This document shows positions 4,267 through 6,762 of a DNA stretch of 6,762 nucleotides, in pieces. The notes beneath the pieces were generated by a model. The model saw nothing but the letters and a program-made list of their open reading frames with translations, ran no database searches and was not told where the DNA came from. The stretch's first letter is position 1. The number at the start of each line of letters is the position of its first letter. The position numbers were made by a program, and so were the translations under genes. The stretch is from Ignavibacteriales bacterium (GTDB lineage Bacteria; Bacteroidota; Ignavibacteria; T3Sed10-11): the NCBI GenBank assembly GCA_003560935.1, contig PWJF01000108.1, positions 1 to 6,762 on the forward strand, given 5' to 3'.

Positions 4267-4296
4267 ATTTCCAAATAATTCTTATATTTTGGAAAT
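4267..4296. promoter_or_regulatory. Dyad ATTTCCAAA-N11/12-TTTGGAAAT, candidate operator
   Basis: ATTTCCAAA at 4267-4275 is the exact reverse complement of TTTGGAAAT at 4288-4296, with a 12-base AT-rich centre. A third half-site, TGGAAAT, occurs at 4248-4254, so ATTTCCA-type half-sites are spaced about 20 bases apart. It lies between the divergent transcription units. It could bind a dimeric regulator or form a hairpin; neither is proven, and the bound factor is unknown. Confidence 0.45.
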
Positions 4297-4371
4297 CTGA
4301 AAATCACTATATCGAAAATTTAGAGTTTCGGGAACTTGCTGTTGGCATGATTGTTGTTTATATTTATTGAC

Positions 4372-4404
4372 AATTGTTTTTTTAATCAATGAGCGCAGCG
4401 AATT
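4372..4404. repeat. Third, diverged copy of the intergenic repeat, abutting the next gene's start
   Basis: This 33-bp copy matches the 32-bp units at 30-93 except for one extra T in the T-run (seven instead of six) and GCGCAGCG instead of GCGAAGCG. Similarity also continues five bases upstream (TTGACAATTG here, TTGTCAATTG at 25-34). The copy ends two bases before the ATG of the exported Cys/His protein, so it forms that gene's entire immediate 5' untranslated region. Confidence 0.85.
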
Positions 4405-4406
4405 AA
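4389..4406 (+). other. Five-codon mini-ORF overlapping the start of the next gene (TAATG)
   Basis: ATG-AGC-GCA-GCG-AAT-TAA (M-S-A-A-N-stop) lies inside the repeat copy, and its TAA shares its last base with the ATG at 4406. The gene at 4406 has no recognisable Shine-Dalgarno of its own, so re-initiation after this mini-ORF is conceivable. The same mini-ORF (M-S-E-A-N-stop) exists in both copies near the left end, where no gene follows. It may therefore be only a property of the repeat. Confidence 0.3.
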
Positions 4407-4828
4407 TGAGTAAATCAACAACATATAGGATATTTGTAATTTCATTCTTGCTGCTGTTTTCCTTCTTTCATGTCGGATTCGCAGCGGTAGAGTATATCTG
4501 CTCCATGGGCATGAAAATGGAAGCGCCGGTATGCTCGAGCTGTCACGCCGGTCACGACCATCCTGGCGGTAAGGTTACAATCACAAGTACCGGTAAGACC
4601 ACCTGCTGCAATGTGGTTGTCACAAAAACGGAAACGATTGATACCTATGTAATCAATCAGGTAAAAGCGCAAAGTTTCATCGAGCATGCACTCGCTTCTG
4701 ACATCGTGGCTCTCACAACCGATGAGAAACCAAGTGCAAACTATTTCAACCATACAACCCCTGTTTTACCGATTTTTAATCTACACGGAATCAGTACGTC
4801 TATTCAGTACACTTCTTTTCTCCGGTAA
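4406..4828 (+). CDS. Small exported Cys/His/Met-rich protein leading the metal efflux operon
   Basis: This 140-residue protein has a clear signal peptide: basic start, hydrophobic stretch at about residues 9-21, and likely cleavage around GFAA (24-27). The mature N-terminus is dense in metal ligands: Cys32, then Met34, Met36 and Met38, then C-x2-C-H-x2-H-x-H (Cys43, Cys46, His47, His50, His52), and a Cys67-Cys68 pair. The C-terminal half has almost no such residues and no motif I recognise. It resembles the short exported Cys-pair proteins found near metal efflux genes in Bacteroidota-like genomes, but I cannot name a family. The position just ahead of the channel and adaptor genes suggests a periplasmic metal binder, chaperone or sensor; that is inference. 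The frame stays open upstream to a TTG at 4367, but that part is read through the repeat, so I start at the ATG giving a proper signal peptide. Confidence 0.8.
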   Translation: MSKSTTYRIFVISFLLLFSFFHVGFAAVEYICSMGMKMEAPVCSSCHAGHDHPGGKVTITSTGKTTCCNVVVTKTETIDTYVINQVKAQSFIEHALASDIVALTTDEKPSANYFNHTTPVLPIFNLHGISTSIQYTSFLR

Positions 4829-4843
4829 TCGTACCCCTTACCG
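4823..4843. repeat. Inverted repeat CGGTAA-N9-TTACCG across the stop codon
   Basis: CGGTAA (4823-4828) and TTACCG (4838-4843) are exact reverse complements with a nine-base spacer. The left arm contains the stop codon of the exported Cys/His protein. No U-tract follows, so it is not a standard terminator. It has the same 6-9-6 geometry as the dyad at 4881-4901. Confidence 0.4.
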
Positions 4844-4858
4844 AAACTATCAAATTAT

Positions 4859-4870
4859 TTACAATTGTAA
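4859..4870. promoter_or_regulatory. 12-bp perfect palindrome TTACAATTGTAA
   Basis: The twelve bases are their own reverse complement and lie in the gap between the exported Cys/His protein gene and the channel gene, 35 bases upstream of the TATAAT box. It could be an operator half of a larger control region. The sequence is AT-rich enough that chance cannot be excluded. Confidence 0.35.
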
Positions 4871-4880
4871 CCCGTAAGTA

Positions 4881-4910
4881 GTGCAGTATTATAACCTGCA
4901 CGGCTATAAT
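4881..4910 (+). promoter_or_regulatory. Candidate promoter: dyad GTGCAG-N9-CTGCAC just before a TATAAT box
   Basis: A perfect -10 hexamer TATAAT lies at 4905-4910, 25 bases before the preferred start of the channel gene. No hexamer at 16-19 bases spacing resembles TTGACA. The place where a -35 would lie is instead occupied by a perfect dyad (GTGCAG 4881-4886, CTGCAC 4896-4901). A dyad sitting between poor -35 and good -10 elements is the layout used by MerR-type metal-responsive activators, but no known MerR-family operator sequence is recognised here. Confidence 0.4.
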
Positions 4911-4925
4911 ATAAATTTAAATAAT

Positions 4926-4930
4926 GAGGA
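4926..4930 (+). promoter_or_regulatory. Ribosome-binding site deciding the channel gene start
   Basis: GAGGA ends five bases before the ATG at 4936 and eight before the adjacent ATG at 4939. It lies inside the reading frame if the ATG at 4924 were used, and that first ATG has no Shine-Dalgarno of its own. This favours initiation at 4936 or 4939. Confidence 0.6.
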
Positions 4931-4935
4931 ATGGC

Positions 4936-6198
4936 ATGATGTTACGTTCACTTGCTTTATTTTTAGTTATTCTAATAGGTGTTCAGTCATCCGGAGCGCA
5001 GATTTCCCGATCGGGAGAGGCGCCGCCGCTTGAATCGCTTATCCGGGAAGCCCTTGAACGAAATCCCGGCATTGAATCATCACGGTATCGTGAACAGTCG
5101 GCCGAACAGCGCATCGACCAAATGCGATCATGGATGCCTCCCATCCTGAAGTATGAGTTCAATCCGGTTCCTATCGGTACGATGGATGCACTTTCATATA
5201 TGAATATGAATGTATTCTCGCTTTCACAGATGATCCCGTTTCCAGGTAAAATCGCTGCACGTGTAGATATGGAAGAAGCCGGATATAATATGGCAACGTT
5301 TGAGCGAGGAGATGATGAAGTACAAATAGCCTCCGAAGTGAAGAGAACATACTATGAACTCTGGATGATGCAGAAAAAACTTGAGGTAAATCGGGAGCTA
5401 CAATCGCTGTTGGAAAATTTCGTTCAATCGGCGCAGCGGATGTACGAGGTCGATATGACGGGACTTGCGGCGGTACTTTCCGCACAGACCAATTTAGCAA
5501 AACTTCGTACTGAGGAAAGAACGATAAAGAACGATTATAATAAAATGCTTGTCATGTTCAATCAACTTCTGTACCGCGAACCCGAAACACCGCTTGGAGA
5601 GATTGTCTCCCTCCCTCCGGAGATAATACCGAGGGATTTTGAAGAATTAGAGCGGCTGATGATTGCACGGCGGCCGGATCTACAGGCGATGCGCTACGGG
5701 ATTGAGATGAATAAAGCGGAAATTCGTTCAGCCCGCCGCGAGTACTATCCGGATATAATGCTCGATTTAATGTACATGCAAATGCCCGGCGGTGCAGAAG
5801 ACCGCTTCGGAGCAATGGTAACGCTGCAAATTCCCCTTGCACCATGGTCGAGCAATATGGTAACACGGCGGGTCAGTGAATCACAATACCAAAGACAATC
5901 CCGTGAGAAAGCTCTTGAAAACATGATAACGATGGCGCGTGCCGAAATACGTCAAGCTCTCCTTGATCTTGAAACGCAACTTGACATTATACGCCTGTAT
6001 CGCGAAGAAGTATTGCCGCAGGCAGAACAGACAGCAGAATCGGCGCTCGGTGCATTTCAAGCAGGTAAAACCGAATACCTGATGGTGCTCGACAGCTATC
6101 GCATGCTCGAAATGTTCCGTATGGAATATTATATGGCGGTAGCGGACTTCCACACGGCTATGGCAGAACTCGAGCGGCAGGCGGGAATAATTTTTTAG
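4936..6198 (+). CDS. TolC-family outer membrane channel of an HME-RND metal efflux system (CusC-like)
   Basis: This 420-residue outer-membrane efflux protein would form the exit duct of a tripartite pump. It has a signal peptide ending near SSGAQ. Two sequence-related halves follow, each made of long alpha-helical stretches around a short beta segment: the first beta region lies around NPVPIGT to SQMIPFPGK (about residues 76-104), the second around PDIMLDLMYMQMPGGAEDRF. The phrases 'SQMIPFPGK' before the helices, 'RRPDLQAMRYGIEMNKAEIRSARREYYPD' type spacing and a late 'FQAGKTEYLMVLDSYRM' are characteristic of the family. It has about 33 methionines in 420 residues (near 8%), several clustered in the two beta segments, and no cysteine. 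Start chosen from the GAGGA site; 4924 and 4939 are alternatives. There is no lipobox, unlike E. coli CusC. The next gene follows after 56 bases. Confidence 0.93.
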   Translation: MMLRSLALFLVILIGVQSSGAQISRSGEAPPLESLIREALERNPGIESSRYREQSAEQRIDQMRSWMPPILKYEFNPVPIGTMDALSYMNMNVFSLSQMIPFPGKIAARVDMEEAGYNMATFERGDDEVQIASEVKRTYYELWMMQKKLEVNRELQSLLENFVQSAQRMYEVDMTGLAAVLSAQTNLAKLRTEERTIKNDYNKMLVMFNQLLYREPETPLGEIVSLPPEIIPRDFEELERLMIARRPDLQAMRYGIEMNKAEIRSARREYYPDIMLDLMYMQMPGGAEDRFGAMVTLQIPLAPWSSNMVTRRVSESQYQRQSREKALENMITMARAEIRQALLDLETQLDIIRLYREEVLPQAEQTAESALGAFQAGKTEYLMVLDSYRMLEMFRMEYYMAVADFHTAMAELERQAGIIF

Positions 6199-6254: not shown

Positions 6255-6762
6255 ATGAAATATTTAATTTTTTTCATAGGGTTTTTGTTTATGTTTGGAA
6301 TTGCCGGGTGCAGTTCGGACGATCACGATCATGACGACGACATTGCCTACTGGACATGCCCCATGCATCCGGAAATTAAAGAAAGTGAACAAACACCCTG
6401 CCCGTTATGCGGCATGGACTTAACACCTGTCCGGTACGATGATGAAGATGATCACGATGAACATGTGCACCGGGGTGATCCTGAAATCGAATACTGGACG
6501 TGCCCGATGCATCCTGAAATCCAGGAAGATGAAGCCGGTTCGTGCCCCATTTGTGGAATGGACCTGGTTCCCGTCCATGCAGATCATGATGAACATGACA
6601 TTAACGATGAACCGCGGGGAAGACTTCGTATTTCTCCAACGCAACAACAAATTATCGGCATGACGTATGACACTGTTCTGACACGGCACCTCGAACCTAC
6701 AATCAGGACGGTTGGAAGAGTAAAAACCGATGAACGGCGGGAAGCAGAGATTACACTCCGGG
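6255..6762 (+). CDS. CusB-like RND periplasmic adaptor with two heavy-metal-binding modules (partial, runs off the right edge)
   Basis: The frame is open from the ATG at 6255 to the window end, giving 169 residues of an expected 400-600. A hydrophobic N-terminus ends in IAGC, a lipobox-like site with Cys19, so the protein is probably a lipoprotein. Two near-identical modules follow at residues 32-59 and 80-107. Each has the pattern YWTCPMHPEI ... CP-x-CGMDL-x-PV, the heavy-metal-binding domain found on CusB/CopA-type proteins. They are separated and flanked by Asp/His-rich linkers (22-29, 62-75, 108-115). From about residue 123 the sequence LRISPTQQQIIGMTYDTV and then IRTVGRVKTDERREAEI is the usual start of the membrane-fusion adaptor core. 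It would couple an inner-membrane RND pump to the TolC-like channel encoded upstream. The ligand set (Cys, Met, His) fits Cu(I)/Ag(I), but Zn/Co/Ni cannot be excluded. Confidence 0.93.
   Translation, partial: MKYLIFFIGFLFMFGIAGCSSDDHDHDDDIAYWTCPMHPEIKESEQTPCPLCGMDLTPVRYDDEDDHDEHVHRGDPEIEYWTCPMHPEIQEDEAGSCPICGMDLVPVHADHDEHDINDEPRGRLRISPTQQQIIGMTYDTVLTRHLEPTIRTVGRVKTDERREAEITLR
6348..6431 (+). repeat. Intragenic duplication, copy 1 (metal-binding module)
   Basis: This encodes residues 32-59 of the adaptor. It pairs with 6492-6575 at a period of 144 bases (48 codons). The two copies share the codons for YW-T-CPMHPEI and CGMDL with mostly synonymous differences. Confidence 0.85.
6492..6575 (+). 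repeat. Intragenic duplication, copy 2 (metal-binding module)
   Basis: This encodes residues 80-107 of the adaptor, the second YWTCPMHPEI ... CGMDLVPV module. All four cysteines and the PMH element of copy 1 are conserved, so both modules look functional. Confidence 0.85.

Follow-up and report, generated by a model that had tools for sequence, protein, structure and literature searches.

What does a small exported protein rich in cysteine, histidine and methionine do at the head of a metal efflux operon? Such a protein is encoded at positions 4406 to 4828 of the window analyzed here, a stretch of 6,762 nucleotides from an Ignavibacteriales bacterium that is an entire contig of a 2.95-Mb genome (79% complete). 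The original prediction offered three roles for the product: a periplasmic metal chaperone, a sensor or a sacrificial binder. On balance, we lean toward the sensor: a divergent HYC_CC_PP relative would detect metal in cis while still a nascent chain, as described for CutF and CruR, and would thereby control the cusCBA-type efflux genes behind it.

The leader gene and its operon

The genes and signals in question are as follows (L numbers denote loci of our collection).

4406..4828, forward strand: leader gene, encoding a 140-amino-acid Cys/His/Met-rich protein of divergent HYC_CC_PP type (ATG start; open reading frame with homologue and profile comparison)
4829..4935, forward strand: intergenic region between the leader and the likely tolC start (107 nt if the conserved start at 4936 is used)
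4927..4932, forward strand: AGGAAT ribosome-binding-like motif (conserved in the window and three relatives, alignment A6)
4936..6198, forward strand: tolC/cusC-type outer-membrane efflux protein (PF02321, E = 5e-47; start reassigned by comparison with L009 to L011)
6255..6762, forward strand: cusB-type adaptor, cut by the contig end (PF19335, E = 2e-26; two N-terminal HMBD stretches)

The leader had been proposed to be the first gene of a metal efflux operon, and this assignment stands. The tolC/cusC (PF02321) and cusB (PF19335, HMBD) genes come next, and the related contig L010 runs on into an RND pump gene of the cusA type (PF00873, E = 4e-81). Against the CusB model, 6255 to 6762 gives a fragment match (E = 1e-14) that is below the model cut-off. 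The tolC start listed at 4924 overlaps the conserved AGGAAT motif, and from the related sequences 4936 or 4939 appears the more likely start. Upstream of the leader, the opposite strand carries housekeeping genes: an enoyl-CoA hydratase (PF00378) and, as judged by eye, adenine phosphoribosyltransferase-like and diaminopimelate epimerase-like genes.

Conservation of the leader protein

A protein search with the leader product yielded nine homologues with 43% to 68% identity. The gene is present in five of the six genomes of the genus, its own included, and is absent from one that is 68% complete. Four segments of the gene can be distinguished.

4406..4483, forward strand: predicted Sec signal peptide, residues 1 to 26 (inspection, alignment and an AF2 helix at residues 3 to 20; presumed cleavage)
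4493..4609, forward strand: metal-ligand cluster YxCSMGMxM...CxxCH...CC, residues 30 to 68 (Cys and Met columns invariant in 10/10; putative metal binding)
4658..4765, forward strand: variable linker of fixed length, residues 85 to 120 (0/36 positions invariant; CC to stop 72 residues in 10/10)
4781..4825, forward strand: conserved C-terminal tail LHGISTSIQYTSFLR, residues 126 to 140, candidate arrest or contact peptide (conservation rank 1/99)

The sequence confirms an open reading frame with a predicted signal peptide, followed by C, MxMxM, CxxCHxxHxH and CC within 37 residues. From C32 to C68, the ligands are C32, M34/M36/M38, C43-x-x-C46-H47-x-x-H50-x-H52 and C67C68. Y30, C32, S33, M34, G35, M36, M38, C43, C46, C67 and C68 are invariant in all ten clade sequences, and so are G24 and A26, a pattern compatible with the −3/−1 rule for signal peptide cleavage. 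The expectation that both the Cys and the His positions would be conserved among homologues holds for the cysteines (10/10) and, in nine of ten sequences, for H47, but the other two histidines (H50 and H52) vary.

The C-terminal half had been called plain, and this description proved wrong. Among the 99 overlapping 15-residue windows of the mature protein, residues 126 to 140 rank first in conservation when the window protein is aligned with its nine homologues. Conservation in the clade falls into two blocks, one formed by the signal peptide and the Cys/Met cluster and the other by the last 15 residues, while the linker between them drifts. In 10/10 window-clade proteins, exactly 72 residues separate the CC pair from the stop.

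At conserved tail residues, identical codons are used at 5/12 positions between the window and L009, at 4/11 between the window and L010, at 4/13 between L009 and L011, and at 3/12 between L010 and L011. The codons are mostly kept in two other genome pairs (window and L011, 10/14; L009 and L010, 13/14). Since most tail codons differ in four of six genome pairs, the RNA is probably not what preserves the tail. Over larger distances, the peptide is retained though its codons change.

The tail (ISTSIQYTSFLR/IPxxxSSLLI) resembles one beta-strand, and its amino acid sequence is preserved; it could be a docking peptide instead. The leader product would then work after export as a sensor or adaptor in the periplasm, using its tail to dock onto CusB, CusC or a signaling receptor, much as CnrX does with CnrY. 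However, no signaling gene was seen beside the leader when the open reading frames of the window and four relative contigs were inspected by eye, and a fixed CC-to-stop length combined with a drifting linker suits tunnel geometry better than docking. We regard a docking role as distinctly improbable.

A separate observation concerns the signal-peptide codons (4406 to 4486). Synonymous codons there tend to be identical between relatives more often than in the rest of the gene (16/20 for the window and L009), which may reflect codon bias or RNA constraint.

Predicted structure

The AF2 model of the window protein, built with 26 sequences, contains the signal helix only (mean pLDDT 46; pLDDT <50 over residues 25 to 103 and 108 to 140), and the protein has no sequence relative in the PDB. 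The model of a family relative of flavobacterial type, L072, reaches a pLDDT of 75 with 52 sequences and is partly ordered. Because this model includes strands and a helix, the family is not wholly unstructured; nothing in the PDB matches the L072 model at E ≤ 0.001. Residues 92 to 108 of L072 form a second, hydrophobic helix in the linker that the window model does not have.

CusF is the small periplasmic copper protein of the Cus operon and is a folded beta-barrel. The earlier statement that the window protein is not CusF by sequence is upheld, as the protein has no PF11604 match. A CusF-type chaperone was rejected on this basis together with the lack of a confident predicted fold and of a PDB match.

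In a broader version of the chaperone proposal, the leader product would move freely in the periplasm as a metallochaperone or metal buffer, deliver Cu(I) via the Cys/Met/His cluster to CusB and CusA and thereby substitute functionally for CusF. Its soft-metal ligands are conserved after a predicted signal peptide, its gene shares an operon with tolC and cusB (with a cusA-type gene in L010), and CusF (PF11604) was found in none of six congeneric genomes, all but one of which are <90% complete. However, the CusB encoded here already has two HMBD stretches, and the mature part of the leader product lacks both a confident predicted fold and a PDB sequence relative. Moreover, neither the conserved tail nor its fixed distance from CC would be necessary for such a role. 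We consider this reading unlikely, although it deserves the most attention among the alternatives to a cis-acting sensor.

Relationship to the HYC_CC_PP family

The window protein reaches no Pfam or NCBIfam cut-off, and the search for an already described family thus gave no clear match, as the original prediction had anticipated. NF047658 (HYC_CC_PP), a family named by its motifs alone, has a curated cut-off of 28 bits; the window protein has no match to it at E ≤ 10. Two distant relatives score above this cut-off (L007, 28.8; L008, 40.7), and a third that was tested, L006, has no NF047658 match. In the wider alignment A4, 9/26 members match NF047658 at E ≤ 10. An hhalign comparison of the ten-member clade with 52 sequences collected by NF047658 alone gave a probability of 87.5 and E = 3.6e-6, over residues 3 to 84 only. 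The wider 26-member alignment matched the NF047658 side at 99.2%, nearly end to end and with the window end placed on the relatives' ...VQSFLI, in a comparison that is not independent, as five sequences are common to both sides.

Like NF047658 members, the window protein has a signal peptide, H/Y-x-C after the signal peptide, CC ∼70 residues before the stop, a C-terminal ...SxLLI/QSFLI tail and a place ahead of RND efflux or TonB genes. The position of the HYC motif is occupied by EYIC, a Y-x-C whose Y30 and C32 are invariant. The window protein departs from these members in having no PP near its end and in its particular CSMGMxM, CxxCH and LHGISTSIQYSSFLR-type tail. A PP lies within the last 20 residues in 48/65 full-length relatives, a count that omits three contig-end loci (L023, L045 and L047), whereas only 1/10 of the window clade has one there, or within the last 25 residues. 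Alignment A3 likewise omits L045 and L047, as well as L027 because of bad start trimming.

The spacing before the stop is also a property of the whole family. CC-to-stop measures 66 to 73 residues in 106/112 distinct members (SD 2.9), whereas the distance from the first Cys to CC has an SD of 9.6. These counts start from 115 proteins including three near-duplicates and omit L024, a weak match with CC 104 residues before the stop.

The profile of the ten-member clade matches 15/391 genomes of the class at E ≤ 0.01, ten of them outside the genus. NF047658 matches 58/198 sampled genomes of the phylum (55 over cut-off) and 55/197 of the class (32 over cut-off), the two samples overlapping. Searched against 5.8 billion proteins, the 26-member profile gave at least 50 matches, and the named ones among the matches listed are all called 'hypothetical protein.' Viral contigs and plasmids contained no relative of the window protein.

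Together, the motifs and profile comparisons suggest that the window protein is a divergent relative of a phylum-wide NF047658-type family, in a clade without the usual C-terminal PP. The earlier label of a lineage-specific protein is apt for close relatives, which the genomes covered here yielded from a single genus, but not for the clade as a whole, since it belongs to that wider family.

Genes downstream from family members

We fetched 68 unique family loci as best matches only (≤30 per search), 13 via window-clade queries and 55 via NF047658; the duplicates L035, L040 and L054 were excluded from the neighborhood count. A same-strand gene follows in 63 of these best-match loci, four have none before the contig end, and one (L024, the weak match) has an opposite-strand neighbor. 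Among the 63, the next gene encodes ACR_tran (RND pump) in 28, OEP (efflux channel) in 13, a TonB Plug domain (receptor) in 10 and HMA in two (E ≤ 1e-5). Efflux neighbors, which the original prediction expected of homologues, are therefore present, the pump in 28/63 and the channel in 13/63 of the best-match loci. The 10/63 TonB-receptor genes argue against the metallochaperone described above.

The leader product might simply be an exported Cys-rich protein that is co-transcribed with the pump, for example as a sacrificial sink for metal or oxidant, and that has no regulatory role. Only the metal ligands and the position speak for such a sink, and the phylum-wide linkage just ahead of efflux and TonB genes, the conservation of the tail and the spacing speak against it. 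We judge it very improbable.

RNA structure at the leader/next-gene junction

When scored against shuffled sequences, the RNA running from the leader into the next gene folds more stably (mean z = −2.58, 55 junctions) than the RNA preceding the leader (mean z = −0.97; p = 3e-6). Pairing between the leader end and the start of the next gene exceeds that of shuffles across 65 family junctions (p = 2e-9), with 22/65 beating at least 38/40 shuffles. At control junctions upstream of the same genes, p is 0.81 and 1/31 beat at least 38/40. The first RNA runs covered 51/63 downstream junctions plus four of the window's family, omitting 12 because their next gene, inspected by eye, did not resemble an RND, OEP or TonB gene. 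The first pairing runs gave 21/56 rows, against 0/27 in a first control of junctions picked by hand. The final pairing run restored the 12 (L044 and L071 were too short to score, and 2/10 scored beat 38/40 shuffles), and the final control used all 31 junctions of 38 to 220 nt. Next-gene starts are partly mechanical open reading frame starts and are probably wrong for L008, L016, L064 and the window's 4924.

Because related loci are not independent, counts were also made per taxonomic family. Pairing is positive in 18/20 families (p = 7e-4), a test that reused rounded pairing values of the first run on the earlier junction set. By duplex energy, cognate arms pair better than the arms of other families in 18/19 families (p = 2e-5). 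The arms diverge between taxonomic families but match within each locus; the window's family is included, with a small effect. Structures were drawn for 16 chosen relatives and four members of the window's family, and among the 16 a long stem often joins the leader stop codon to the start of the next gene. RNAalifold gave no long stem for seven flavobacterial-type or four window-clade junctions, probably because MAFFT fails to register the diverged arms; the comparison of cognate and noncognate arms was used instead.

Pairing of the leader end with the start of the next gene is thus established family-wide, and it is weak in the window's own operon. Minimum free energy z values are 0.18 for the window, −1.74 for L009, −0.80 for L010 and −1.27 for L011. 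The observed pairing is reached by 8, 1, 9 and 16 of 40 shuffles for the window (start 4936), L009, L010 and L011, respectively, so that only L009 beats 38/40; with the tolC start at 4924, it is reached by 37/40 for the window. Cognate-arm ranks for these four loci are 23, 19, 21 and 19 of 52, in a comparison that dropped junctions <56 nt and the first of the window starts. Pairing and folding that are not clearly above shuffles constitute the main weakness of a cis-acting leader here. For the docking partner, the family-wide RNA coupling to the next gene is a difficulty, since it would be left unexplained.

The tail codons of the window clade were also considered as an anti-Shine-Dalgarno element, and this role was rejected: short complementarity exists in 4/4 genomes, yet the ranks are 19 to 23 of 52, and the codons mostly differ in four of the six genome pairs. 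Rfam has no match in the window and, in ten relatives, matches only one tRNA away from the junction.

Comparison with known metal-responsive leaders

CutF of Rhodobacter capsulatus is described as a co-translationally exported copper sensor with a stem-loop over the start of the next gene, which delayed export allows to open. According to the same account, the CutF tail alone failed to stall a LepB fusion, and the arrest is thus termed stalling-like (PMC9973294). CutF and the CutF-like set (Ozturk et al. 2023, PMC9973294) resemble the window leader as characterized there, in that each is a short exported protein with a Cys metal motif and a C-terminal motif, encoded first before metal genes. 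CutF differs in its CxxxC and its proline-rich C terminus (PMC9973294). By the selection rules given in that paper, the window leader is <150 residues long (140), has a signal peptide by inspection and a metal-binding motif, and is followed by a same-strand gene within <1000 nt (107). The accompanying filter (PMC9973294), PP within the 15 C-terminal residues, selects 0/10 of the window clade. The published CutF-like list, as presented, contains many Bacteroidota proteins as well as OEP, ACR_tran and TonB neighbors (PMC9973294), and NF047658 members with a late PP are likely in it. A CutF-like stem-loop masking the next start is clear across the family and weak or absent in the window clade.

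CruR of Bordetella pertussis is reported to be a DUF2946 (PF11162) leader in which copper relieves arrest at RAPP via CxxC, with a dispensable signal peptide (PMC9426467). Its arrest was later shown in vitro (PMC12992588); a 2024 paper that predates this proof treats neither the CutF nor the CruR arrest as yet demonstrated in its discussion of them (PMC10987492). Like the window leader, CruR is described as a leader open reading frame in which the spacing between a Cys motif and a C-terminal motif is conserved and little structure is predicted, and it controls a downstream TonB receptor gene by copper (PMC9426467, PMC12992588). It differs in its RAPP arrest motif and its CxxC-RAPP spacing of 45, and in acting without a signal peptide and through Rho (PMC9426467, PMC12992588).

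DUF2946 (PF11162) membership of the window protein was rejected, as there is no match at E ≤ 10 and, for 52 relatives, the domain does not appear in the 25 families listed out of 29. Across the 198 sampled phylum genomes, DUF2946 was found in five (two over cut-off), compared with the 58 (55 over cut-off) for NF047658. CzcI of Cupriavidus metallidurans pMOL30 (L089) resembles the window leader, being encoded just before czcC, exported-looking and marked by ...YC after the signal peptide. It differs in its length of 115 residues, and its own DUF2946 match is weak (E = 0.026, below cut-off). In its discussion, PMC9973294 suggests CzcI as a metal-sensing regulator without PP. Homology to CzcI was rejected, the hhalign probabilities being 15% and 4%. 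With DUF2946 not listed for the relatives and the CzcI alignment confined to the signal peptide and first Cys, a common origin with the leaders studied so far is unsupported.

No study of NF047658 proteins was found in the portions of the literature that treat HYC_CC_PP and CruR- or CutF-like leaders, supplements aside. As these papers present them, the copper-responsive leaders CutF and CruR, with CopL as a likely third, come from Proteobacteria (PMC9973294, PMC9426467).

A possible mechanism of metal sensing

What is established for the leader is its place in the operon, the conservation of its ligand cluster and its tail, and the constant distance from CC to stop. The family link, the tail, the spacing and the neighbors make a cis-acting leader the most likely reading, and the layout shared with CutF, CruR and CzcI favors a nascent-chain metal sensor over a chaperone. 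Thus, among the roles first proposed, the sensor gains over the chaperone: the tail is conserved and keeps a constant spacing to the Cys pair, no confident fold is predicted for the mature part, and the layout is that of CutF, CruR and CzcI.

The ribosome tunnel holds ∼30 to 40 residues and the translocon some 25 to 30. With these dimensions, CC would exit the translocon at about the time that the last codons are read. In the cis-acting sensor, the predicted signal peptide would target the nascent chain to the Sec translocon. With the ribosome at the last codons, the YxC, CxxC and CC ligands would lie at least 70 residues ahead and would have just begun to reach the periplasm, where they may bind Cu(I) or another soft metal of this kind. 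Metal binding could alter the pull on the chain, and the conserved tail might then slow or release the ribosome at the end of the frame. Ribosome occupancy at this site would open or close the tolC junction, such that the pump is made when metal is present. Among the points against this mechanism, the C-terminal PP of CutF and CruR is missing in the clade, the CutF tail by itself failed to stall a reporter, and CruR, as described, responds without its signal peptide and has its arrest relieved by copper, unlike an export-coupled model (PMC9973294, PMC9426467).

A wider proposal, which we put forward tentatively and as somewhat less probable than the sensor role of the window leader itself, is that HYC_CC_PP leaders could be a Bacteroidota-wide counterpart of CutF and CruR. 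They would be exported nascent chains that sense periplasmic metal and gate RND efflux or TonB genes via an RNA stem from stop to start. The window clade would be a branch without the stem, in which a new arrest peptide, LHGISTSIQYSSFLR, replaces the proline motif. If this is true, then the HYC_CC_PP-type family fills a Bacteroidota gap beside the Proteobacteria leaders and does so with another kind of tail, and translation coupled to export often sets metal efflux across a large phylum. An arrest tail free of proline would also provide a new sequence for studies of ribosome stalling.

Sequences upstream of the leader

One further conserved element precedes the leader gene.

4328..4366, forward strand: conserved promoter-like block TCGGGAACTTGC-N2-TTGGCATGATTGTTGTT-TATATTTA, partly sigma54-like (alignment A7)

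A dispersed repeat, TTAATCAATGAGCGNAGCGAATTAA, occurs at 39 to 63, 71 to 95 and 4382 to 4406 of the window. It has 42 copies (≤2 mismatches) in the window's genome and zero to five in each of five congeneric genomes. One copy lies between the promoter-like block and the leader ATG and is missing upstream in three aligned relatives. In relatives the ATG comes almost directly after the block, so the 5′ leader may be very short.

The sigma54-like label of 4328 to 4366 refers to the sigma54 consensus. Within the sigma54-like TTGGCATGATTGTTGTT at 4342 to 4358, TGGCAC...TTGTTGT is retained in L009 and L010 and degenerate in L011. The sigma54 activator domain has 16 matches in the window's genome, some of them weak. 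An inverted repeat, ATTTCCAAA...TTTGGAAAT, lies at 4267 to 4296 in a partly conserved upstream block, where L009 carries TTCTTAtattTAAGAA; it is possibly an activator site.
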